Below are positions 1 to 12,575 of a DNA stretch of 15,981 bases, piece after piece (position 1 is the stretch's first letter; each line of letters starts with the position of its first letter). Both the position numbers and the translations under genes were made by a program. The DNA is from a bacterium (GTDB lineage Bacteria; CAIWAD01): assembly GCA_030429345.1 (NCBI GenBank), contig JAUIFJ010000051.1, positions 1-15,981 on the forward strand, given 5' to 3'. Under the pieces are notes generated by a model that saw only the letters and a program-made list of their open reading frames with translations, did no database searches and was not told the DNA's origin.

Positions 1-182
1 CCCGTAAGGGTCGATCGCGATCGACCCCTACAAAACGGATCGAAATACAAACCACCGGCGGTGAAAACGAAATCCCCCGTAAGGGTCGATCGCGATCGAC
101 CCCTACGAAACGGATCAAAACACAAACCACCGACGGTGAAAACGAAATCCCCCGTAAGGGTCGATCGCGATCGACCCCTACG
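1..182. repeat. Tandem 75-bp palindromic repeat array (2.4 units)
   Basis: Two complete 75-bp units (1-75, 76-150) and the first 32 bp of a third (151-182). Units 1 and 2 differ at four positions (32, 42, 46 and 58 of the unit). Each unit starts with a perfect 20-bp palindrome whose half is GGGTCGATCG (8-27, 83-102, 158-177). Counting one mismatched pair, the palindrome extends to 28 bp (4-31, 79-106, 154-181). The rest of the unit holds a second small inverted repeat, CACCG-N-CGGTG (53-63, 128-138); the only change between copies there is the central unpaired base. The array begins at the window edge and may continue to the left. It ends 40 bp before the hisS start. It is unrelated in sequence to the REP elements at 10862-12575. 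It looks like an intergenic palindromic repeat family; its function is unknown. Confidence 0.9.
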
Positions 183-221: not shown

Positions 222-1547
222 ATGAGCACACGTATCACACCCCGACTCTACAACGGCACGCGGGACTTCCTGCCGGCCGAGATGCTGGCCCGCGAGGAGC
301 TGCTGGCCACCATGCGACGCAGTTTCCAGCTCTACGGCTTCGCCCCGGTGGAGACGCCGGCCATGGAGTACCTGGAGATCCTCCTGGGCAAGTACGGCGA
401 GGACGAGAAGCTGATCTACAAGCTGGACTACCGCAACGACGAGGCCGCGCGGCGGCTGGCCCTGCGCTACGATCACACGGTGCCGCTGGCCCGGCTGATC
501 GGCATGCATTCGGACCTGCCGTTGCCCTTCAAGCGCTACCAGTTCCAGCCGGTCTGGCGCGCCGACCGGCCCCAGCCGCGGCAGGGACGCTTCCGCGAGT
601 TCTGGCAGTGCGACATCGACACCGTGGGCAGCGAGTCCCGCCTGGCCGACGCCGAGATCCTCGCCGCCGCCGCGGAAATGCTGACGGCCCTCGAGCTGCC
701 CGACTACCGCATCCGCGTGAATCACCGCCGGCTGCTGACGACGCTGATCCGCTGGGCCGGCTATCCCGTTCAGCGCGAGGGCGCGGTCTGCGGCGCCATC
801 GACAAGCTGGAGAAGATCGGCCGCGAGGGCGTGCTCAAGGAGCTTGCCGGCCTGCCTGCCGAGGGCGGCGACGGGGAGAAGCTGCTCGATCTGCTGGATC
901 GCGGCGCCGACTGGAGCACCCTGGAGCGACTGTCCGAGCTGGACTCCGGCGACGGTGCGGCCGAGACCGCCCTGGCCGAGCTCGAGGAGCTGCACCGTCT
1001 CTGCCTGGGACTGGGCGTCCCCGAGGAACACCTGCGCCTCGACCTGCACCTGGCCCGTGGCCTCTCGTACTACACCGGGCCGATCTTCGAGACCGTGATC
1101 CCTTCCCTGCCGCACATGGGCAGCGTAATGGGCGGCGGGCGCTATGACGAGCTGATCGGCCTCTATCTCGGGCGTTCCATGCCGGCCACCGGGCTGACCA
1201 TGGGCCTGGACCGCATCCTGGCCGCCATGGCCCAGCTGGGCCGGGAGCACACGCGTACGACACCGGCGGTGGTCTGGATCACGCGCGGTTTCGCCGAGAC
1301 CGACGAGGCGGCCGTCGCCCTGGCCGGGCGCCTGCGCGGCGCCGGGATTCCCTGTGAGCTCTCCCTTGAACAAGGGAAATTGAAGAAGCAGTTCTCCGCG
1401 GCCAACCGGAAGGGAATCCCTCTGGTGATCACCCTGGGCCCCGACGAAGCGGCCGCCGGCAAGGTCACGCTGAAGGACATGCAGAGCGGCAGCCAGGAGA
1501 GCCTGGACGAGGCGGGCCTGCTCGAGCGCCTGCAGGCGGCCCTGTGA
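222..1547 (+). CDS. hisS: Histidine--tRNA ligase (HisRS)
   Basis: Cytoplasmic class II aminoacyl-tRNA synthetase that charges tRNA-His with histidine using ATP. The 441-residue length is normal. Visible landmarks: N-terminal NGTRDFLP (residues 11-18); motif 2 region FKRYQFQPVWRADRP...FREFWQCDID (103-133); the histidine-binding signature LARGLSYYTGPIFE around residues 278-291 with Arg279; GGGRYDELI; and motif 3 GLTMGLDRIL (324-333). The anticodon-binding domain follows to the C-terminus. The classical bacterial form has RGLDYY where this one has RGLSYY; this and the FREFWQCDID style fit the eukaryote-like HisRS subgroup found in several bacterial phyla. ATG 222 gives the expected N-terminus, but no good Shine-Dalgarno sequence is visible; the 40 bp upstream follow the palindromic array and show no convincing promoter. 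The stop overlaps the GTG of the next gene. Confidence 0.97.
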   Translation: MSTRITPRLYNGTRDFLPAEMLAREELLATMRRSFQLYGFAPVETPAMEYLEILLGKYGEDEKLIYKLDYRNDEAARRLALRYDHTVPLARLIGMHSDLPLPFKRYQFQPVWRADRPQPRQGRFREFWQCDIDTVGSESRLADAEILAAAAEMLTALELPDYRIRVNHRRLLTTLIRWAGYPVQREGAVCGAIDKLEKIGREGVLKELAGLPAEGGDGEKLLDLLDRGADWSTLERLSELDSGDGAAETALAELEELHRLCLGLGVPEEHLRLDLHLARGLSYYTGPIFETVIPSLPHMGSVMGGGRYDELIGLYLGRSMPATGLTMGLDRILAAMAQLGREHTRTTPAVVWITRGFAETDEAAVALAGRLRGAGIPCELSLEQGKLKKQFSAANRKGIPLVITLGPDEAAAGKVTLKDMQSGSQESLDEAGLLERLQAAL

Positions 1548-4042
1548 GCCCTCTGCTCCTTCTGCTGCTGGCCGGCAGCGCCACGGCGGCAAGCCGGCTT
1601 CCTGGCGTGCTTCCCGCGCCCGATGGAGCGCGCAGTCCCTGGCCCGCCGTCGATCGGCTGGGGCAAAGCGCTCCCTCCCGGACTGCGGCACGCTCCCCGT
1701 ATACATTCCGGGCGCGCGACAACGGTTCCCCGCGACAGGGCGGCGAGGACGAAACCGGCGCCGTGCTGCTGGAAGAGCCCCCCCTGCGGATTGCGGGCAC
1801 GACCGTCGGCTACCAGGACGACTACACGCCGGGCTGCGCCGCCATGCCCGGAAGCGGAGACGTGGTCTACCGGCTGCAGCCCGCCGAGGACTTCTCCCTG
1901 GAGGCGAGCCTCTGCGGATCGGTGGACTGGCTCGCCGTCATGGCATTGTATCACGGCGGCATTGAATCCGAAAGCCTTTTGTCCTGCGCCAACGGCGGCT
2001 GCCCCGACGGGGCGGCCCTGCTGCACGCGAGCCTCGAGGCCGGAGAGACCTACTACCTGCTGATCGACGGCTTCGCCGGTGAGAGCGGGGACTACGTGCT
2101 CAAACTCTGGACGCCCTGCCCCGCCGCCTCTCCCCTGGTCTGCGGGGAATCCGTCGTGATCCAGGACAGCCTGACCGGCAATGCCTGGTCCGCCTACTGC
2201 GAGCTGAACGAGAGCGGCCCCGAGATGGCCTGGAGCATCGACTTCCCCGGCGGACTTCTCGAAGCGGAACTGTTCTCGCTGAACGGGCTGGATCACGACC
2301 TGGCCCTGCTCGCCGATTGTGATCCTGCCAGCTGCCTGCAGATGCCCTTCCAGGCCGGCGAGCGCGAGATCCTGAGCAATGTCTTTCCCGCGGGGCAGTA
2401 TACGCTGGCCGTCGACATCTGGAACTGGTCCGCCAGCCTGGACCCGGCGCTGGGACTGGATTACAGCCTTTCCTTGAGCTGCGAAACGGAACCCTGCGCG
2501 GAGGTGCCGCCCCTCTTCTGCCTGCATCCGCAGGAATCGGAACCCAACGGCGGCTGGGACGACGAGAACCTCTTCCACGAGCTCATCGCCTGCGGCGACA
2601 CGCTCTGCGGCACGATCTGGGCCGACGGCGGCAACCGCGACCTGGACTGGTTCCGCCTGTCTCACGAGGGCGGCCCCCTGCGCGCCGGCCTGGAAGTCGA
2701 CGCCCTCAACCCGATCCTCTTCCTGACCGATTTCGCCCTGCCCGATGCGGGCGGCATGGTCCTGGCAAGCCGGGATCGCGGACTCTTCTGCGAAGGCGAG
2801 GAACTGCTCCTGCCCGACCTGGATCCCGGCGACTACTACCTGGTGGTGTCGCACAATGCCCTGGTCGGCCTGCCCGACGAGGCGCCCTACCGTTTGTGGC
2901 TCGGCTGCCCAGAGGACCCCTGCGAGGCGCACGAGCCGCCGCAGTGCGCCGGGCAGCAGGAGCTGGAGCCCAACGAGGGCTGGAACTCCGGCAACGAGGA
3001 CTGGAACGACTGGAACGGCCAGGAGGCGCTCTGCGGCACCGTGACCGCCGTGGGCGGATTCCGGGACACGGACTGGTTCCGTTTCACCCTTGCCGACAGC
3101 GCGCAGCTCAGCCTGGCCGTCGATCCCGGCGAGTTCGACCCGATCCTTTTCCTGGCCGACGCGAACCTTCCGCCCATCGGCGTGATCCATGCCGGCGCGG
3201 ACAACCACGGCAGCTGCCAGCCGGAAAGCCTGCGCGTCTCCTGCCTGCCGCCGGGCGAGTACTACGCCATGGTCGCTCCGGCGGGCGGCATCGACCTGCC
3301 GGAAGAACAGCCCTGGGAGCTGCGGATCCACCTGGCCCCACCCGGAGAATGCCCCCAGCCCTGTGTCGGCACCACAATGATCCAGGACGACGAATTGCCC
3401 TGGAGCGCCGAGCTGCCGGCTCCACAGGCGGAGCACCAGCAGCGCCCCTGGCTCTGCGGCGAGGTCAATTCCGCCGGGGCGGACGATGTCTACGAACTGC
3501 AGCTGTCCCAGGCCATGGAGCTGCGGATCACGATGACCGGCCTGGCGCCCCGGGCCGACGAGGTCCTGCTGCTGCTCGACTCCTGCGGCGAGAACGCGAC
3601 CTGCCTGGCCTGGGCCGACGACAACGGTCCCGGGGAGGGTGGCGAAAGCCTGCTCAGCGGCATCCTGCCCGCCGGATCGTATACACTGATCGCCGACTTC
3701 TGGGGCAGCCTGGAAAGCCATCCCTACAGCCTGGAGATCGAGCCGCTCAGCGCGCTGGATCACGAAGCGATGACGCGGCCACGCAGCCTGCGCCTGTCCG
3801 CCGCGCCCAATCCCTTCAATCCGCGCACGAGGCTCGGCTGGGAGCATCCGGGTGGAGCGGCCCGCGTGGATGTCTACAACCTGAACGGGCAACGCCTGCT
3901 GAGAGAGGAACTGCCGCAGCTTTCCGCCGGCAGCCAGACCTGGATGCTGGATGGCGGCGCCTGGGCCAGCGGTGTCTACATCGTCCAGCTGCAGCTGGCC
4001 GAAGGTCCGGCGATACGCCGGAAGATCCTGCTGCTGCGCTAG
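1544..4042 (+). CDS. Secreted multi-domain protein with PPC-like repeats and a C-terminal FlgD-Ig/T9SS-like sorting domain
   Basis: 832 residues. The GTG start overlaps the hisS stop in a GTGA junction, so translation is probably coupled. The N-terminus (SPLLLLLLAGSATAAS) is a signal peptide that lacks the usual basic residues. About five beta-rich modules of roughly 110-140 residues follow. They resemble bacterial pre-peptidase C-terminal (PPC) domains: two contain a D-x-DWFR[LF] strand, and most end in a P-[AP]-G-x-Y-x-L type strand. Linkers between modules are cysteine-rich with the pattern C-x3-PC-x4-PP-x2-C (for example CETEPCAEVPPLFC and CPEDPCEAHEPPQC), suggesting disulfides in an exported protein. 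Residues ~745-832 form a FlgD-Ig-like / type IX sorting-type domain, with NPFNPRT at 756, GVYIVQL near the end and the tail RRKILLLR. No catalytic domain is recognisable; an adhesive or surface-scaffold role is inferred. The PPC assignment is by pattern only. Confidence 0.85.
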   Translation: MSPLLLLLLAGSATAASRLPGVLPAPDGARSPWPAVDRLGQSAPSRTAARSPYTFRARDNGSPRQGGEDETGAVLLEEPPLRIAGTTVGYQDDYTPGCAAMPGSGDVVYRLQPAEDFSLEASLCGSVDWLAVMALYHGGIESESLLSCANGGCPDGAALLHASLEAGETYYLLIDGFAGESGDYVLKLWTPCPAASPLVCGESVVIQDSLTGNAWSAYCELNESGPEMAWSIDFPGGLLEAELFSLNGLDHDLALLADCDPASCLQMPFQAGEREILSNVFPAGQYTLAVDIWNWSASLDPALGLDYSLSLSCETEPCAEVPPLFCLHPQESEPNGGWDDENLFHELIACGDTLCGTIWADGGNRDLDWFRLSHEGGPLRAGLEVDALNPILFLTDFALPDAGGMVLASRDRGLFCEGEELLLPDLDPGDYYLVVSHNALVGLPDEAPYRLWLGCPEDPCEAHEPPQCAGQQELEPNEGWNSGNEDWNDWNGQEALCGTVTAVGGFRDTDWFRFTLADSAQLSLAVDPGEFDPILFLADANLPPIGVIHAGADNHGSCQPESLRVSCLPPGEYYAMVAPAGGIDLPEEQPWELRIHLAPPGECPQPCVGTTMIQDDELPWSAELPAPQAEHQQRPWLCGEVNSAGADDVYELQLSQAMELRITMTGLAPRADEVLLLLDSCGENATCLAWADDNGPGEGGESLLSGILPAGSYTLIADFWGSLESHPYSLEIEPLSALDHEAMTRPRSLRLSAAPNPFNPRTRLGWEHPGGAARVDVYNLNGQRLLREELPQLSAGSQTWMLDGGAWASGVYIVQLQLAEGPAIRRKILLLR

Positions 4043-4224: not shown

Positions 4225-4650
4225 ATGGACCGACTTCTGCCACAGGCCGTTCTCTGGATCGGTCTGAGCCTTTCATCCGCCGCCGAGGCGACCCAGCTGC
4301 GCCTGCACCTGGCCGCGGGCGGGCTGGTGGAACTGCCGGTCGCCGACCTGCAAAGCCTCCGCTTCGAGGGAGTCCAGCCACCTGCTCCCCGCGTCGACAT
4401 CCGGTTGACTGGTGGTCAGCTGGCCTTGAGCTGGGCTCCCCTGCCCCGAGCGGCCGCCCTCTGGTCGACGGCTACCCCCTACGATACCGGTCCGGCCGCC
4501 TGGGTCCTGGAAGCAGCCTTCGTGGCCGGCTCGCAGGGCACGCAACTCCCCATTGACGCCGGCCGGCGTTTCTACCAGTTGCGATTGGAGGACGCGAGCC
4601 GGACGACCTCCCCTTCCGCAAACGATGGCATCTACACCGATACACCATGA
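4225..4650 (+). CDS. Small secreted protein: LxxH...SLxF N-terminal motif plus FN3-like domain
   Basis: 141 residues. Probable signal peptide (residues 1-22, ending SSAAEA). Then comes a short motif, LRLHLAAGG...LQSLRF (25-47), that recurs in the next two proteins. The remainder (about 50-125) reads like one fibronectin-III-like sandwich: a strand RLTGGQLALSWAPL, then ATPYDTGPAAW, then AGRRFYQLRLED near the end. This is the pattern seen in secreted proteins of FCB-related bacteria. No sorting-type C-terminus and no catalytic motif are visible. First gene of a probable operon, with the promoter at 4105-4133 and the next gene 9 nt downstream. The Shine-Dalgarno is weak (CAGG around 4215-4218). 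Function unknown; the FN3-like call is from pattern, not alignment. Confidence 0.72.
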   Translation: MDRLLPQAVLWIGLSLSSAAEATQLRLHLAAGGLVELPVADLQSLRFEGVQPPAPRVDIRLTGGQLALSWAPLPRAAALWSTATPYDTGPAAWVLEAAFVAGSQGTQLPIDAGRRFYQLRLEDASRTTSPSANDGIYTDTP

Positions 4651-4659
4651 AGGAACCGC

Positions 4660-5118
4660 ATGATCCCGACACGCACCTGGCTGGCAGCGCTGCTGTGCTG
4701 CACGCCCCTGCTCCAGGCGCAAAGCCTGCTGACGATTCATCGAACGGACGGCGAGGCGGAGAGCTTTGCCCTCGAGACGATCCGCAGCCTGCGCTTCACG
4801 GCGTCTACGGAGGTGGAAGACGCCTCCGCGCCGCTGGCGAGCGCCTTCGCGCTGCAGCCCAACTTCCCCAACCCCTTCAATCCCGAAACGACGATCGTGT
4901 ACACGCTCGAGCGTCCGCTGGACCTGAAAGTCGAGATCCACGACCTGCGTGGAGCGCGGGTGGCGACCCTGGCCGATGGGCTGCATGCGGCGGGTCGACA
5001 CGAGCTCCGCTGGACGGGCCGCAACGGGGAGGGGCGTGCCGTGGCGAGCGGAGTCTACCTTCTTGTCGCACAACACGAGGAGCAGAGCCGCACGCGCAAG
5101 CTGCTCCTCCTGAAATGA
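4660..5118 (+). CDS. Mini secreted protein: signal peptide, LxxH...SLxF motif and C-terminal FlgD-Ig/T9SS-like sorting domain
   Basis: 152 residues. Signal peptide at about 1-20 (RTWLAALLCCTPLLQAQ). The shared module LLTIHRTDGE...IRSLRF follows at residues 23-46. A short linker leads straight into a FlgD-Ig-like sorting-type domain (about 65-152) with PNFPNPFNPET (NPFNP from 71), VEIHDLRGARVATL, GVYLLVAQ and the tail RKLLLLK. There is no passenger domain between the module and the sorting domain, which is unusual because these domains normally sit at the end of large cargo proteins. Start chosen at 4660 because AAGGA (4650-4654) sits 5 nt upstream. It is 9 nt after the preceding stop and overlaps or abuts the next gene, so it is certainly co-transcribed if expressed. 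Confidence 0.82.
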   Translation: MIPTRTWLAALLCCTPLLQAQSLLTIHRTDGEAESFALETIRSLRFTASTEVEDASAPLASAFALQPNFPNPFNPETTIVYTLERPLDLKVEIHDLRGARVATLADGLHAAGRHELRWTGRNGEGRAVASGVYLLVAQHEEQSRTRKLLLLK

Positions 5119-5129
5119 GAGGCTTCCAG

Positions 5130-7418
5130 ATGAGCAATCGAACTGCAAGCCTGCTGCTGCTTCTGCTGTCGGTCACTTTCGTCCGGGCGCAGGAGCTGCA
5201 CCTGGTGGATCACGACGGCAACAGCCAGTCCTGGCCACTCTCGGAGCTGACAAGCATCACCTTCGAGGACGATCCCATCCGCTCGGCCAACGACATGCTC
5301 CTGCTCCACCGCCCGGCGGATGTCCTGGGCATCGACCTCTCCGGCATCGACAGCCTGAGTTTCCCGGACGGCGAATGGCTGCGCATCCATAGCCCGGAGG
5401 CGGAGACCGACTATGCCCTGGCAGGCATCGACAGCCTGGGCTTCGGCGACAGCGAGGCCGTCCAGGTGATCTACCGCGAAAGCAGCGCCTGGGTGATCAA
5501 TCCCCTGGAAAGCCTGGGTGTGACGGTGTCCTTCGATGGCGCCCATGTGCTCGTCACCTCCGACGAAGGCATCGAGGATGTGCTCTACGAGCTGAGCGGA
5601 CACACCCAGGACGGCGGCTTCAAGATCTATTCCGAGGAAGACTTCGGCCTGCGCCTGAAGGGCGTGCAGCTGCAGAGCGAAATCGGCCCTGCCATCAACG
5701 TGCAGAATGGAGATGCCGAGATCGAACTGGCCGCGGGCACGGTGAGCCGCCTGGCGGACGGCATGGTCTACAATGATCCCCCCGACGACGAAGACCAGAA
5801 AGGGGCCATCTTCGGCGAGGACGACCTGGTCTTCGGCGGGGAAGGCGCGGTAGTGATCACGGGGCGTGGCGACGACCAGCACGCCCTGGCCTGTGATGAC
5901 TGGATTCTGATCCAAAGTGGCACGATCACCGTTGCCGGCGCCACCAAGGACGCGGTGCACACCAACGACGGCCTGGAAATGACCGGCGGCATCCTTGAGC
6001 TCAGCGCCGACGGGGACGGCCTCGACGGGGGCGCGGGACCGGTCGTGCTCTCTGGCGGAATGCTGGCCATCGAAGTGCCGGAGAACGACAACGACGGCAT
6101 CAAGTGCGACGGGGAGATCACGCTCGATGGCGCGGAGGTCACTCTCCAGGTGGACGGAGACCAGTCCAAGGGCATGAACGCGGCGACAATCCAGCTGCTG
6201 GACGGAACTCTTGTGATCCAGACGACCGGCGATGCCGTGCTCGAGGAGGCCGGATCCGGTTTCGATCCTTCCTACTGCACGGGGATCAAGGCCGATGAGC
6301 TTGTGACACTCGACGGGGCCAATGTCGAGATCACCACCAGCGGCGCGGCGGGCCGCGGCATTTCCAGCGACGGCGACATCTCGCTGCTTTCCGGCAGCCT
6401 GCAGATCAATTCCAGCGAGGACGGCTTCAGCTACACCAACGAGGAGGGCCAGAACGACGCTGCGCAAGGGCATTGCCTGAAGACCGACGGCGACCTGTTG
6501 TTCTCGGGCGGCACGACGACCCTGTCTCACGCCGGCGACGGCGGCCGCGGCATTTCCGTGGACGGCAACCTGCTGGTCGAAAACGAGGGGACTATGCTCG
6601 ACATCACCACCACCGGTGGGTCGATCTCCCTGGGAGGCGGCAATGCGGCCGAAGCCAAGGCCGTCAAGGCCGACAGCCTGATCACAATCATCGGCGGAAC
6701 GCTTACCATTGATTCGGCCGATGACGCCCTGAAGTCGGAAACGGGCATCCACATATCCGGCGGAGAGATCACGATCGAGGATTCAGAAGAAGGCATCGAG
6801 GCCCCGGACATCCACATCACGGGCGGCGACATCTTCGCCCGCTCCGGCGACGACGTGTTGAATGCCACCGCCGGCGTAGACGGGGAATTCAATGATGGCA
6901 GCCTGCTGCTGATCGAAGGCGGTCGCGTCGTACTCGACAGCTATGGCGGGGACTGCATCGACAGCAACGGGAATTTCACCATGGCCGGGGGCACCTTGCT
7001 GGTGCACGGTCCGCCCAACCAGCCGGAAGTGGCTCTTGACATCAATGGAGTCTTCCGAGTGGACGGCGGGCTGCTGGTCAGCGCCGCGGTCAATGGCAAC
7101 CACACGGAAACCCCCAGCAACCAATCGACGGCGCAGGTCTTTTTGCTGCGGCGCAACCAGAGCCTGTCCGGCGGCACCCTGCTGCACATCGAGGACAGCG
7201 AGGGCAACGAGCTGGTCACTTTCGCTCCCTTGCGCAGCTACGGGGCGATCCACTTCAGTTCTCCCGATATCCAGGCCGGCACACAATACATCTTCTACAC
7301 CGGGGGCAGCCACAGCGGCAGCGAGCAGGATGGCCTGTATACAGGTGGATCCTATACGCCTGGAACACAGCGTGCGACGTTTACGGCAAACGGCGGGGTG
7401 CAGCAGATCAACTTCTAG
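5130..7418 (+). CDS. Secreted Cthe_2159-like (carbohydrate-binding, DUF4353-type) beta-helix protein with tandem LxxH...SLxF modules
   Basis: 762 residues from the ATG at 5130. Signal peptide 1-20 (ASLLLLLLSVTFVRA). Residues 22-45, 56-78, 83-105 and, more degenerately, 111-135 are successive copies of the N-terminal module found once in each of the two genes before it. From about residue 145 the protein is made of short Gly/Asp-rich strand repeats such as DGDGLDGG, NDNDGIKCDG, GISSDGDISL and KADSLITIIGG. These are typical of the Cthe_2159 family, a calcium-binding right-handed parallel beta-helix with affinity for acidic sugars and cellulose; sugar binding here is inferred. It lacks the C-terminal sorting domain of its neighbour. 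GAGAGG at 5117-5122, 7 nt upstream, favours ATG 5130. An alternative ATG at 5115 overlaps the previous stop (ATGA) and adds five residues. A strong terminator follows. Confidence 0.88.
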   Translation: MSNRTASLLLLLLSVTFVRAQELHLVDHDGNSQSWPLSELTSITFEDDPIRSANDMLLLHRPADVLGIDLSGIDSLSFPDGEWLRIHSPEAETDYALAGIDSLGFGDSEAVQVIYRESSAWVINPLESLGVTVSFDGAHVLVTSDEGIEDVLYELSGHTQDGGFKIYSEEDFGLRLKGVQLQSEIGPAINVQNGDAEIELAAGTVSRLADGMVYNDPPDDEDQKGAIFGEDDLVFGGEGAVVITGRGDDQHALACDDWILIQSGTITVAGATKDAVHTNDGLEMTGGILELSADGDGLDGGAGPVVLSGGMLAIEVPENDNDGIKCDGEITLDGAEVTLQVDGDQSKGMNAATIQLLDGTLVIQTTGDAVLEEAGSGFDPSYCTGIKADELVTLDGANVEITTSGAAGRGISSDGDISLLSGSLQINSSEDGFSYTNEEGQNDAAQGHCLKTDGDLLFSGGTTTLSHAGDGGRGISVDGNLLVENEGTMLDITTTGGSISLGGGNAAEAKAVKADSLITIIGGTLTIDSADDALKSETGIHISGGEITIEDSEEGIEAPDIHITGGDIFARSGDDVLNATAGVDGEFNDGSLLLIEGGRVVLDSYGGDCIDSNGNFTMAGGTLLVHGPPNQPEVALDINGVFRVDGGLLVSAAVNGNHTETPSNQSTAQVFLLRRNQSLSGGTLLHIEDSEGNELVTFAPLRSYGAIHFSSPDIQAGTQYIFYTGGSHSGSEQDGLYTGGSYTPGTQRATFTANGGVQQINF

Positions 7419-7444
7419 CACGTCCGATTCTTGCACCGCACCTG

Positions 7445-7478
7445 GGGGCCCCGTTCACGACGGGGTCCCTTTTCTTTT
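7445..7478 (+). terminator. Strong intrinsic terminator of the secreted-protein operon
   Basis: A 10-bp stem (7445-7454 with 7460-7469, all Watson-Crick except one G-U) closes a 5-nt loop TCACG. It is followed by TTTTCTTTT (7470-7478). It lies 26 bp after the stop of the beta-helix gene. Confidence 0.88.
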
Positions 7479-8433: not shown

Positions 8434-10788
8434 ATGAGGACATGGCTACAAGGATCACATCTGGCAAGTGCCGCTTTCCTGCTTGTCTTCGCCCACACCG
8501 CAAGTGCTGCGAGCGGATCCGGCGACACTCCCCTGCTGAGCGGCCTGGACGACAGGGACAGCGTCTACATCCTGGACCTCTACGGGAAGGGCCGCCAGGA
8601 TCTGGTCTACACCGACCGGGAGTCCGGTTCGATCCTGCTCCGGCCCGGCCGTGCATGGAATCGCGGCTTCGCCGAAGAGCAAGCGCTGGTCGATTCCCTG
8701 CTTCATCCACAGGCTGGCATGGCATTCTGCGATCTGGACGGAGACGGCGACCAGGACCTGCTCTACCAGAACCGATACAGATCCGACGGGTATTACATCA
8801 TCCATGAGATCCGCTGGCTGGAGAATCTCGGGAGGCGCGACGGATTCGCGGAAGATCGCGTGCTCCATTGGGAAATGGAGCGCTACGACCTGGCGGGCAT
8901 GTACGGCTTTTCGAAGGAGTCCAACCCCGTCGGCCTGCTCCTTCCGGGCGACCTGGACCAGGACGGCGATCCGGACCTTGTCTACGCGCGCTTTCCCGGC
9001 ATCGGCCTTCGCTGGCTGGAGCAACTGGCAGCGCCAGATTCCTTCCATGTCTCACGACCGATCCCGGGGCCCGGCGCTGAAGGGAGATCGCTTCGCCTGC
9101 TGGACCTCGATGCGGACGGAGACCTGGACCTGGTCGGCCAGCGGAAGAGAAGCGAGGTTCTCTGCTGGGCGGAAAACCAGGGAGCGCTCCAGGGATTCTC
9201 CCCCTTTCACCCTCTTGTGCTGGACAGCGAAGACCGCCCCGGGAAGATCCGGCGACTCTGGGCCTGGGCGGACCTGAATGGAGATCAGCGGCTGGATGCC
9301 CTGGGAACAGTCGGACGATCGAGGCGGTCCGCCGTCCTCTTCACTCGACCACCGTACGGCTTCGAGAAGGCGGTGGATCTGCCAGTGGATCCCACCTGCA
9401 GGCATCTGCTGCCCCTGGACCTGGACGAGGACGGCGACCTCGACTTGCTGGCACTCACCCACTCAGACGCCGCTCTCCTCCGCTACGAGAACACGGATGG
9501 CGCAGGCAGCTTCCGCCTGAGAGACACGCTGGATGTATACGGATTGCGGATCCGTGTTGCGCGTCTGCTTACCGGGAAGAAGAATCCCTCTCTGCTGCTC
9601 ACAAGCACGGGGGGCGAAGTCTTCCTCCGCGAACTGAAAGACGTGCCCTCCTGGCCGGCTCCTGCCGTCATCCCGCCCGAAGCCCCGATTGTAGACGGAG
9701 CCGGCCCCTTCGCCGCTCATCGGCGCCTGCCCTTCCAGCACCGCTTCCGGCCTTTGTACTTCTTCGCCTGCGATCAGGATGGAGACGGAGGACCCGAACT
9801 GGGATTCTACCGGAACTCCCGCACGCTCGACGGCGCAGAGCTTCCCTTCGGCAAGCGGGCTCCGACGGTCGACACGCCGTTCAATCCGGTATTGGACAAG
9901 TACATCCAATGTGTCGATCTCAACGGCGATGGAGTGCTGGATCGCCTGGTCGCCAACCCCACGACCGGCGTCTACTGGTTCGCAGCCGATCCCGGGACCG
10001 AAGCCTGGGGGCCGCAGCAGGAGATCGGCAACCGGCTTCGCATGCCGACCTCGGTCTGCAGTGGTGACCTGGACGGGGACGGCGCTCCGGATGTGCTGCT
10101 CAGCCTGTCCCTTAGCAATGAAGTGCTCTGGTTCCGCAACCGGGACGGGAAGGGCGCCTTCGACTCCCCCCGGGTGATCACGGACCAGGCTCAGTCCGCG
10201 GATCACGTGAACTGTGCGGATCTCGACATGGACGGTGATCTGGATGTGCTCTGCGCGTCCAACCACGACGACACCTTTTCCTGGTTCGAGAACACGGACG
10301 GGAAGGGCGGATTCGGAAGCAGGCGATTTGTGTCACGGAAATCCAACGGGGCCTTCCACATCCAGGCCGTGGATCTGGACGGCGACGGCGATCCGGACCT
10401 GCTCGGCGCTTCGCGCTGGGGCGCGACGATCGCCTGGTGGGAGAACCGGGACGGGCGGGGAACCTTCGGCAAAGCGCAGGAGATCTCGAACCGGGAAATT
10501 GGTCTCCGTCCTCTGCTCTGCATGGATCTCGATCTCGACGGGGACGCGGACATCCTTGCCGGGCATCGCGACAGCAAGGGCCTGGACGCCTACCTGAACG
10601 ACGGCGCGGGCAACTTCAGCACCCTGCCCATCGTGCGGGCAGAAGAAAAACGCGTGCTCACCCTGTGCTGCATGGATGTAGACGGGGACGGCGACCCCGA
10701 CCTGTTCACGGTTCCCCGGGTTCCGTTAGGGGAAGATCCCGTACTCCACCTGTACCGCAATCTCAGCGCGGACATCCGGCTGGAGTGA
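8434..10788 (+). CDS. Secreted FG-GAP / VCBS-repeat protein, probably two tandem beta-propellers
   Basis: 784 residues with a signal peptide (about 1-24, ending FAHTASAAS). Twelve clear Ca-binding FG-GAP-type motifs, D-x-[DN]-x-D-x-x-x-[DE] (for example DLDGDGDPD), start at residues 100, 173, 224, 280, 329, 447, 495, 545, 596, 647, 698 and 748. Two degenerate copies lie at 48 (DLYGKGRQD) and about 378 (LLTGKKNPS). Many repeats also contain a WxEN or WFxN strand, as expected for propeller blades. FG-GAP proteins are extracellular, often adhesive or sugar-binding; no enzyme domain is visible. Unlike the proteins at 1544 and 4660 it has no C-terminal sorting-type domain. ATG 8434 is chosen because a signal peptide follows immediately; the frame is open 41 codons further upstream but that part is not signal-like. 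No clear promoter lies in the 119-bp gap before it. Confidence 0.9.
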   Translation: MRTWLQGSHLASAAFLLVFAHTASAASGSGDTPLLSGLDDRDSVYILDLYGKGRQDLVYTDRESGSILLRPGRAWNRGFAEEQALVDSLLHPQAGMAFCDLDGDGDQDLLYQNRYRSDGYYIIHEIRWLENLGRRDGFAEDRVLHWEMERYDLAGMYGFSKESNPVGLLLPGDLDQDGDPDLVYARFPGIGLRWLEQLAAPDSFHVSRPIPGPGAEGRSLRLLDLDADGDLDLVGQRKRSEVLCWAENQGALQGFSPFHPLVLDSEDRPGKIRRLWAWADLNGDQRLDALGTVGRSRRSAVLFTRPPYGFEKAVDLPVDPTCRHLLPLDLDEDGDLDLLALTHSDAALLRYENTDGAGSFRLRDTLDVYGLRIRVARLLTGKKNPSLLLTSTGGEVFLRELKDVPSWPAPAVIPPEAPIVDGAGPFAAHRRLPFQHRFRPLYFFACDQDGDGGPELGFYRNSRTLDGAELPFGKRAPTVDTPFNPVLDKYIQCVDLNGDGVLDRLVANPTTGVYWFAADPGTEAWGPQQEIGNRLRMPTSVCSGDLDGDGAPDVLLSLSLSNEVLWFRNRDGKGAFDSPRVITDQAQSADHVNCADLDMDGDLDVLCASNHDDTFSWFENTDGKGGFGSRRFVSRKSNGAFHIQAVDLDGDGDPDLLGASRWGATIAWWENRDGRGTFGKAQEISNREIGLRPLLCMDLDLDGDADILAGHRDSKGLDAYLNDGAGNFSTLPIVRAEEKRVLTLCCMDVDGDGDPDLFTVPRVPLGEDPVLHLYRNLSADIRLE

Positions 10789-11137
10789 GTGTTGCAGGCA
10801 AGCGCCCTCAGACAGCGCAATGAGTTGATCTCGCTTCATGGAAGAGCTCGGCCGATCCCATGGGCGCGAAGCGCACACATATCCCCCTTGCTGCAGGCGA
10901 AAGCCTGCAGCCCCCATTACAATCCCCATCCCTCAAGCCCCCATCGTCCAATTCACCGGACAGTTCCTGTGCAGTCGTGATCCGTCCATTCATCTCGACG
11001 TTCCGCCGATATCAATGTTTATTCGCGGGGGATGTGTTCCATCTCCAACCGGGAAGCTCTATCCTTGGCACGTCAATACAGGGCTGGCCGCATGCGGCAA
11101 GTACTGCTGTGTGCCATCAGGGCAAAAGGACTCTCCA
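10789..11137. other. Intergenic region upstream of the transposase, containing one REP
   Basis: 349 bp with no supported gene. The first 70 bp are unremarkable. 10862-10915 is REP element a. The remaining about 220 bp up to the GTG at 11138 could hold the transposase promoter or the element's left end. I looked for -35/-10 pairs and found none convincing: TTGGCA at 11065-11070 has no partner at 16-18 nt. Confidence 0.6.
10862..10915 (+). repeat. REP element a (single, forward)
   Basis: GGGCGCGAAGCGCAC at 10862-10876, then 13 nt, then a perfect hairpin with 9-bp stem GCTGCAGGC and loop GAAA (10890-10911), then CCCC. The first box contains the mini-hairpin GCGC-GAA-GCGC. It is 222 bp upstream of the transposase start and about 75 bp after the FG-GAP gene stop. 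Confidence 0.88.
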
Positions 11138-11590
11138 GTGAGCTACATCAACATCAATTTCCATGTGGTCTTCTCGACGAAGTATCGCCTGCCCTGGATC
11201 GATCGCGACCTGCGCTGGCCGATCACGGGAATCATGAAGGAGATCATCCGCGAGGATGGCGGCCTGTTGTTTGAAGGCGGGGGAATCGAGGATCACATGC
11301 ACCTGTTGTTCCGCCTGCCTCAGACGGCCAGCCTTCCCCTGGTGTTGCAACGGCTGAAAGCCAGCACCTCGCGCTGGGTGCACAAGGAAGCGGGTCTGAA
11401 CAAGAACTGTCGCTGGCAAAAAGGCTATGCCGCCTTTTCGGTCGGCTACAGGGAGGTACCGATTGTACGACGCTACATCCAGCGCCAGGAAATGCATCAT
11501 CGTCACCTGAACCTGGTGGAAGAATACAAGAACCTTCTCCGCGAACACGGAATCGAGTTCGATGAGAATCGATTGTTTGAAGAGGAGTAG
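11138..11590 (+). CDS. IS200-like / REP-associated tyrosine (Y1 HUH) transposase
   Basis: 150 residues, Transposase_17 (IS200/IS605 TnpA) fold. It would bind hairpins in single-stranded DNA and cut and rejoin them through a 5'-phosphotyrosine. Visible hallmarks: the N-terminal strand SYININFHVVFSTKYR; the HUH metal motif His53-Met54-His55 (EDHMHLLFRLP); LKASTSRWVHKE; WQKGYAAFSV; the catalytic Tyr113 in YIQRQEMHHRH with Gln117; and a C-terminal EYKNLLREHGIEFDE. All expected catalytic residues are present, so it looks intact. GTG 11138 is the start: AAAGGA (11125-11130) lies 7 nt upstream, and the conserved N-terminus begins right there. It belongs to the branch lacking TnpB and often linked to REP repeats, which agrees with the hairpin repeats on both sides. 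Confidence 0.93.
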   Translation: MSYININFHVVFSTKYRLPWIDRDLRWPITGIMKEIIREDGGLLFEGGGIEDHMHLLFRLPQTASLPLVLQRLKASTSRWVHKEAGLNKNCRWQKGYAAFSVGYREVPIVRRYIQRQEMHHRHLNLVEEYKNLLREHGIEFDENRLFEEE

Positions 11591-11608
11591 GGGTTTGACG
11601 ATTTTTTT

Positions 11609-11724
11609 GGGGCTGAGGGCTTGCGCCCACAGCCATGTGTATGAGTGCGCTTCGCGCCCTGGTTGCAATCCTCCGACTGCAAGGGCGCGAAGCGCACCCA
11701 CCCTCCCCTTGCTGCAGGCGAAAG
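11609..11724. repeat. BIME b: inverted pair of REP elements (right half truncated)
   Basis: The left REP is in reverse orientation: hairpin 11611-11634 (GGCTG and GGGC stem segments, A-A mismatch), an 11-nt spacer, then GTGCGCTTCGCGCCCT (11645-11660). After 21 nt, the right REP is forward: AGGGCGCGAAGCGCAC (11682-11697), a 13-nt spacer and the start of the GAAA hairpin (11711-11724), which breaks off after GAAAG. The two 16-nt boxes are perfect inverted repeats, so the whole can fold as one long cruciform. The 121 bp that follow (11725-11845) contain nothing I recognise. 111 of 116 positions match BIME c. Confidence 0.88.
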
Positions 11725-11845
11725 TGATCGCCATGTGCCACTTCACCCGGAACAACCTGGCCAAGGCACGCGCACACGTATTCCGGAACCCTGTACGCAA
11801 TGTGATCGAAATGACCACAATGAGTACGGCTGGCCAGCTTTTTCC

Positions 11846-11975
11846 GGGGCTGAGGGCTTGCGCCCACAGCCATGTGCATGTGTGCGCTTCGCGCCCTGGT
11901 GGCAATCCTCCGATTCCAAGGGCGCGAAGCGCACCCACCCTCCCCTTGCTGCAGGCGAAAGCCTGCAGCCCCCAT
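11846..11975. repeat. BIME c: complete inverted pair of REP elements
   Basis: The left reverse REP has hairpin 11848-11871, an 11-nt spacer and a box at 11882-11897. The right forward REP has a box at 11919-11934, a 13-nt spacer and a complete hairpin at 11948-11969 (9-bp stem GCTGCAGGC, loop GAAA), then CCCCC. It is a near-copy of BIME b, 237 bp away. It lies between the transposase and the CopD-like gene, whose start is 83 bp further on. Confidence 0.9.
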
Positions 11976-12057
11976 CCACAAATCTTCCCTGACCATTCCA
12001 TGTGGTTTCATTCAAAAGCCAGTGTGAACTTCCTTTTCAGGTTCATTCGGAGTTTCC

Positions 12058-12498
12058 ATGTACGGCGTCCTTCTTTTTCTGCATATCCTCGGCGCGACGA
12101 TCTGGACGGGGGGACACATCGTCCTCAGCACGGTCATCCTGCCCCGCGTGCTGCGCGAGGGTTCCCCGCGACTCCTGCTCGAATTCGAGAAGCCCTTCGA
12201 GCGCATCGGCCTCCCGGCTTTGCTGGTCCAGGTGCTGACCGGCATCGAGCTGGCGCGGCGCTACTTGCCAATGAACCAGTGGTTCGACTTCTCCAACCCC
12301 CTGGCGCACGGCATCGCCACCAAGCTGCTGCTGCTGGCGCTGACCCTGGCCTTCGCGCTGCATGCCCAGTTCCGCGTGCTCCCCCGCCTGGGCGAGGGCC
12401 GGCTGAAGCAGATGGCCTGGCACATCGTGCCTGTGACCCTCTTCTCGATTCTCTTCCTGATCGCCGGCGTCGCCTTCCGGGCCGGCTGGTACTACTAG
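12058..12498 (+). CDS. CopD-like integral membrane protein (four TM segments)
   Basis: 146 residues with four hydrophobic segments: about 2-30, 50-69, 86-105 and 118-144. The opening LLFLHILGATIWTGGHIVL carries His9 and His20. Other conserved-looking histidines are in PLAHGIATK, ALHAQF and MAWHIVPVTL. This layout matches small stand-alone CopD-family (copper resistance D-like) membrane proteins found in many bacteria, in which paired histidines are thought to bind heme or copper. A role in metal or redox handling is inferred from the family only. The ATG is preceded by CGGAG (12048-12052) at 5 nt. It sits between two REP loci and 184 bp before katA, in the same direction. There is no visible terminator between it and katA except the REP hairpin. 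Confidence 0.75.
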   Translation: MYGVLLFLHILGATIWTGGHIVLSTVILPRVLREGSPRLLLEFEKPFERIGLPALLVQVLTGIELARRYLPMNQWFDFSNPLAHGIATKLLLLALTLAFALHAQFRVLPRLGEGRLKQMAWHIVPVTLFSILFLIAGVAFRAGWYY

Positions 12499-12521
12499 CC
12501 CGAGAGCTCACCCGATTCCAG

Positions 12522-12575
12522 GGGCGCGAAGCGCACCCACCTTCCCCATGCAGCAGGCGCAAGCCTGCAGCCCCC
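12522..12575 (+). repeat. REP element d (single, forward, variant hairpin)
   Basis: GGGCGCGAAGCGCAC (12522-12536), a 13-nt spacer, then a hairpin 12550-12571 with 6-bp stem GCAGGC, loop GCAA, an A-A mismatch and two further outer pairs, then CCCC. It lies 23 bp after the stop of the CopD-like gene, a typical 3'-UTR position for REPs. Compared with copy a, the loop changed from GAAA to GCAA yet remains a GNRA-type loop. Confidence 0.85.

Follow-up and report, generated by a model that had tools for sequence, protein, structure and literature searches.

A cassette of three secreted proteins with a shared N-terminal module

We analyzed a 15,981-nt stretch of bacterial DNA (the window; contig JAUIFJ010000051.1 of assembly GCA_030429345.1, lineage CAIWAD01), in which three genes that lie in the same direction encode the secreted proteins P1, P2 and P3, each with a module of ~23 residues just after its signal peptide (Table 1). 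The genes are separated by 9 nt (P1-P2) and 11 nt (P2-P3), and an alternative in-frame ATG for P3 at position 5115 would give an ATGA overlap with the P2 stop codon. A first-pass annotation, made from the sequence alone, had placed the cassette between a good promoter and a strong terminator. The terminator is clear, with a stem and T run downstream of P3; no promoter was found upstream of the cassette at the scan threshold.

Beyond the module the three proteins differ. P2 has the sorting domain described in the first-pass annotation, a C-terminal domain (CTD) typical of type A cargo of the type IX secretion system (T9SS) with a TIGR04183 score above the curated cut-off, and no other domain. 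P3 is a beta-helix protein, as had been proposed: it matched PF14262 (Cthe_2159) with 179.4 bits against a cut-off of 25.8, and PDB entries 4peu and 4phb are its closest solved structures both by sequence and by fold (Foldseek). The description of P1 as FN3-like was not supported: its sequence outside the module matched no Pfam family at E values up to 10 and no NCBIfam model. Neither P1 nor P3 has a CTD of its own by Pfam or NCBIfam.

Table 1. Positions of the cassette genes, module copies, domains and terminator in the window
Feature	Position	Strand	Description
P1 open reading frame (ORF)	4225-4650	+	141 aa; signal peptide, one module and ~90 aa that match no Pfam or NCBIfam family; T9SS CTD absent
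Module copy in P1 (LRLHLAAGGLVELPVADLQSLRF)	4297-4365	+	residues 25-47
P2 ORF	4660-5118	+	152 aa; signal peptide, one module and T9SS type A sorting domain, nothing else
Module copy in P2 (LTIHRTDGEAESFALETIRSLRF)	4729-4797	+	residues 24-46; small-partner signature I-R-S
T9SS type A CTD of P2	4864-5106	+	TIGR04183, residues 69-149 of 152, 30.0 bits (cut-off 23); also PF13860 FlgD_ig
P3 ORF	5130-7418	+	762 aa; signal peptide, three modules and Cthe_2159 beta-helix; lacks both CTD and lipobox
Module copy a in P3 (LHLVDHDGNSQSWPLSELTSITF)	5196-5264	+	residues 23-45
Module copy b in P3 (MLLLHRPADVLGIDLSGIDSLSF)	5295-5363	+	residues 56-78; large-partner signature I-D-S
Module copy c in P3 (WLRIHSPEAETDYALAGIDSLGF)	5376-5444	+	residues 83-105; large-partner signature I-D-S
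P3 beta-helix region	5460-7415	+	PF14262 Cthe_2159; model mostly pLDDT (predicted local distance difference test) ~90; best matches PDB 4peu/4phb
Intrinsic terminator-like hairpin at cassette end	7444-7470	+	stem of 12 pairs and T run; -22.6 kcal/mol

The module is recovered by a profile built from other genomes

The module is an ungapped stretch of 23 residues that directly follows the signal peptide in P1, P2 and P3 (first copy). One copy per protein had been counted at first, which holds for P1 and P2; P3 has three in tandem, of which b and c agree at 10 of 23 residues, and this marks the module as a repeat unit. Pairwise similarity among the three copies compared in the window was marginal against shuffled sequences (p = 0.06, 0.23 and 0.04). 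The case was therefore rested on a profile trained outside the window, on 63 module copies from Bacteroidia genomes only. With this profile P1 scored 11.2 bits, P2 21.8 and P3 19.3, each at the position already described; of 2000 shuffles per protein the best reached 1.7, 3.6 and 8.3 bits, and no match was found in the other window proteins tested. Taken alone, P3 copies b and c scored weakly. The Bacteroidia copies had first been located with window-seeded profiles, so that the test is independent in sequence but not in discovery. Judged by these profile scores, the module is real in P1, P2 and P3.

Neither Pfam nor NCBIfam holds a model that matched the module, and a search of the organism's own genome found no copy outside the cassette. 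In low-confidence models of P2 and P3 the module is predicted to form a strand, a turn, a second strand, a short helix and a further strand; pLDDT was ~55 for the module of P2, for which the single-sequence model is weak, and <50 (very low) for residues 24-107 of P3. This P3 region lies outside the beta-helix, which begins near residue 111 and is confidently modelled over most of residues 111-762. A relative of P3 in Opitutales (L012, 627-2954 of its locus) shares 49-52% identity over the beta-helix and has another N-terminal region, indicating that the module is separable from the beta-helix. The N-terminal region of this relative carries a repeated motif of its own (WVWVSSYPHVY... and WVWMSSFPYIY...), which is possibly a functional replacement of the module.

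We considered whether the three copies might be ordinary first strands of unrelated folds, alike by chance or convergence because they follow signal peptides. The marginal pairwise similarities in the window would fit such an origin, which we nevertheless regard as highly improbable: the outside profile finds all three copies at the same position and above every shuffle, the module has almost no insertions or deletions across phyla, and the gene pairing described below is conserved. The profile and adjacency results together largely refute it.

The module marks a recurring gene pair across Bacteroidia

The module had been expected to extend beyond this locus, and it does, recurring across Bacteroidia in adjacent gene pairs. 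Module-profile searches of Bacteroidales and Bacteroidia genomes (16/295 at E <= 0.05; 25/395 at E <= 0.01) led to the retrieval of 40 loci. The upstream partner, mostly of 150-175 aa, has a signal peptide, one or two modules and a T9SS sorting domain, and no other domain. Directly after it, on the same strand and mostly at a distance of -4 to 16 nt, follows a larger protein in which the module occurs at least once. Several proteins carry two or three copies in tandem. We refer to the small and large proteins as candidate adaptors and clients.

Pairs were counted in those loci that the module profile by itself had found, and a pair required a small (<230 aa) CTD protein as the immediate upstream neighbour, no more than 250 nt away. 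Of 42 module-bearing proteins that were not themselves small, 28 had such a neighbour; among 181 further genes, 3 did (Fisher p = 6e-22, a value that ignores relatedness). Two of the three exceptions (L103 and L105, from two related genomes) have a short unrelated gene (RFEDAIAWQKSK...) between adaptor and client. Clustering at 40% identity divides the small proteins into 22 groups, which argues that the pair is not one lineage counted many times. The module thus marks a recurring gene pair across Bacteroidia. P2 and P3 form such a pair: P2 consists of module and CTD only, and P3, 11 nt downstream, has an N-terminal module and no CTD.

The proteins matched by the profile are secreted proteins rather than random ones, with few false matches; L093/L102 (periplasmic, SH3-like by eye) and L100 were discarded as module carriers. 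In the organism's own genome a search for other carriers returned only this cassette. Elsewhere the partners included FISUMP, lamin-tail and Cthe_2159 proteins.

Small and large partners differ in domain content and in module signature

TIGR04183 and PF18962 matched 30 of 30 small proteins and 0 of 39 large ones. The large partners instead carry FISUMP domains (25-26 proteins), lamin-tail domains (4), Cthe_2159 beta-helices (4, P3 included) and others, and no protein of the retrieved loci combines a module, a CTD and a further domain. The module itself also differs between partners. The large copies read I-D-S in 29 of 32 cases, the other three being shifted by one residue, while the small copies tend to I-R-K/S: the signature site holds D in 3/31 and R, K, Q or N in 21/31 (0/32 in large copies). 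In the window, P2 has TIRS and P3 copies b and c have GIDS, so that this pair follows the partner rule; P3 copy a (LTS) and P1 (LQS) fall outside the pattern.

The domain results bear on the possibility that the small protein regulates its neighbour or serves it as a chaperone in the periplasm, its CTD-like domain being a generic immunoglobulin-like (Ig) fold, similar to FlgD_ig, with no role in T9SS. P2 does fit PF13860 FlgD_ig (40.6 bits) better than PF18962 (21.2 bits, under its cut-off of 27). We consider this explanation improbable, however, given the TIGR04183 score of P2 (Table 1), the matches of all 30 small proteins to both sorting-domain models and the presence of the translocon protein SprA (below).

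The tandem copies raise another alternative, in which the module would be a beta-hairpin for self-association or capping in surface proteins, and small and large proteins would share an operon because both serve one surface structure, the large protein not being moved by the small one. Two or three copies in a row do look like a sheet-building repeat, and arrays with several clients exist. Yet self-association fails to explain why module and CTD alone make up the adaptor, why a CTD never occurs in a client and why the two partner types differ in signature; it seems to us unlikely, though less so than a regulator or chaperone.

Relatives of the clients without the module

For comparison, samples of the Cthe_2159 and FISUMP families were drawn independently of the module. 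Among module-free Cthe_2159 proteins of Bacteroidia above the Pfam cut-off, five of six have a lipobox (L222, L223, L224, L225 and L227). The seventh genome of this search (G368) has the form with module and adaptor (L094); like P3, L094 has tandem modules, an adaptor and no lipobox, as do L109 and L111, which came from the module search and not from the family sample. An own CTD for the sixth module-free protein, L226, was rejected for want of TIGR04183 support. The family search for FISUMP gave 56 proteins, with a lipobox in ~23 and a module in 4 (both by eye) and a CTD in 5. An adaptor lies directly upstream of two of the four module-bearing proteins (L176 and L212) and of neither of the others (L185 and L186). 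When modules in this sample were called automatically, with a stricter threshold, L185 was the sole carrier flagged, and this count on its own therefore lends no support.

None of the four further genomes of this small phylum holds a PF14262 relative of P3, and a search of plasmid and phage collections with P3 returned only partial matches to the beta-helix. The Cthe_2159 family is reported to bind cellulose and polygalacturonate in Clostridium thermocellum (PMC6712302), and membership of this family suggests that P3 may bind polysaccharide.

A candidate T9SS adaptor with putative clients that lack a sorting domain

In the literature T9SS cargo is described as requiring a CTD (PMC11285876). 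The presence of the translocon was judged by SprA (TIGR04189), which is found above the curated cut-off in the organism's own genome (664 bits summed) and in its four relatives. We suggest that the cassette is probably, though by no means certainly, a T9SS adaptor-client unit, in which P2 would couple the CTD-less P3, and probably P1 as a second CTD-less client, to export or surface anchoring through pairing of their modules. P2 would serve as a small adaptor that joins a docking module to a type A sorting domain; P3, with its beta-helix of carbohydrate-binding type, and probably P1 would be clients that bring a docking module and no sorting domain. Once exported by Sec, adaptor and client would pair through their modules, probably by beta-strands, and the single CTD on P2 would route or anchor the whole complex at the cell surface. 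What the sequences show is the modules, the domain asymmetry, the recurrence and adjacency of the pair, its signatures and a T9SS translocon gene in the genome; we infer the physical pairing, the translocation as a complex, its timing relative to passage of the outer membrane and the surface location. The lipoboxes of most module-free Cthe_2159 relatives, where proteins of the P3 form have modules and an adaptor, also speak for the proposal. The first-pass annotation had seen in the module a common docking or assembly element: the docking idea is supported, assembly is narrowed to a secretion or anchoring adaptor plus its clients, and the asymmetry in CTDs had been missed.

The principal rival keeps the pairing and places it after export. 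Here T9SS would export and anchor the small protein as a surface receptor, and the client would arrive by another route and be captured through its module, with no export in trans. All the sequence evidence for pairing fits this equally; the module might work inside the outer membrane or outside it. Against this, a Sec signal peptide is the only export signal recognised in the clients, with none for crossing the outer membrane, and the adjacent, often overlapping genes of the pair suggest co-production and early pairing. We hold a post-export receptor to be unlikely, if the least unlikely of the alternatives.

Several observations weigh against the adaptor-client proposal. ORFs entered the 30-row alignment as small partners because they were short and lay upstream, and there is a resemblance between CTD-like and FlgD_ig domains. 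SprA occurs in 67 of 68 sampled Bacteroidia genomes, so near-universal that co-occurrence with T9SS does not discriminate. The module trees of adaptors and clients correlate with r = 0.50, yet adaptor CTD and client module reach r = 0.49, and the module-module correlation is therefore not specific. Module proteins without an adjacent adaptor exist (L079, L112, L185, L186 and members of the FISUMP arrays L096/L097/L104). The Cthe_2159 protein L226 has a signal peptide only, with a CTD-like end unmatched by TIGR04183, and there are FISUMP proteins in which a signal peptide is accompanied by neither module nor CTD nor lipobox; the lack of an anchor alone thus does not imply an adaptor, and the FISUMP proteins show the adaptor-client scheme to be incomplete. 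Finally, the module was modelled only in monomers and at low confidence.

Comparison with known systems

P2 resembles T9SS type A cargo (Por_Secre_tail, TIGR04183/PF18962) in its Sec signal peptide, its C-terminal type A sorting domain and the SprA of its genome. Unlike such cargo, its passenger is the 23-residue module only, and the passenger domains are on CTD-less neighbours. In type B CTD systems, cargo works with PorP/SprF-like shuttle or anchor partners (PMC9143113, PMC12618676); there, too, a partner fixes the final site of a T9SS surface protein and the two are often encoded together. In those systems, however, the CTD belongs to the cargo, and an outer-membrane shuttle acts as partner; in the present unit the CTD is found on the partner, which looks soluble, and is missing from the cargo. 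A literature search, made mostly without subscription journals, found no published description of CTD-less cargo with a CTD adaptor.

P3 is like Cthe_2159 (PF14262; 4peu/4phb) in family score and fold, but is longer, has three N-terminal modules and lacks a lipobox, whereas most retrieved relatives are lipoproteins. The commonest clients, the FISUMP (TIGR02145/PF09603) and lamin-tail (PF00932) proteins of Bacteroidota, have the same module and the same kind of small adaptor upstream, but a client domain unrelated to that of P3.

More generally, T9SS may export or anchor proteins in trans through minimal CTD adaptors and a short beta module, with more than one type of docking (LTQGFQQ/YQAVAR being the second); this extension is tentative, and we find it nearly as plausible as its contrary. 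T9SS secretomes are predicted by the CTD; were the CTD to reside on a minimal partner, in-trans clients would form an additional class, so that surface proteins dependent on T9SS would outnumber those that CTD searches show. Pairing with an adaptor would account for the location of many Bacteroidota proteins of the FISUMP, lamin-tail and Cthe_2159 types that lack a CTD, would suggest a role for a widespread N-terminal motif without a matching Pfam or NCBIfam model, and would provide surface display with a short docking tag of natural origin.

The second adaptor-like pair was seen in the FISUMP family sample. It consists of a small protein with a signal peptide, the motif SLSWTIGE...LTQGFQQ and a CTD, directly followed by a CTD-less protein that carries a YQAVAR...N motif at its N-terminus, at loci L178 (4577-7015), L179, L180 (3243-5080) and L171. 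In L171 the CTD partner upstream of the YQAVAR protein has 652 aa.

Other features of the window

Just upstream of the cassette, positions 1544-4042 encode a protein of 832 aa that combines a pre-peptidase domain with a T9SS sorting domain of its own; ordinary CTD cargo thus also seems to be in use in this organism. The cassette has a GC content of ~64%, near that of the flanking DNA; its acquisition by lateral transfer is possible. At the start of the window (1-182), upstream of hisS, lies a 75-nt tandem repeat (2.4 copies, 96% match) that includes the palindrome GGGTCGATCGCGATCGACCC. Downstream, an IS200-like Y1 transposase (PF01797; 10838-11587) lies among palindromic repeat units within 10764-12575, GCTGCAGGCGAAAGCCTGCAGC and GGGCGCGAAGCGCAC, in four copies. 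Transposase and palindromes together look like a transposase associated with repetitive extragenic palindromes (REP) and its own repeats.

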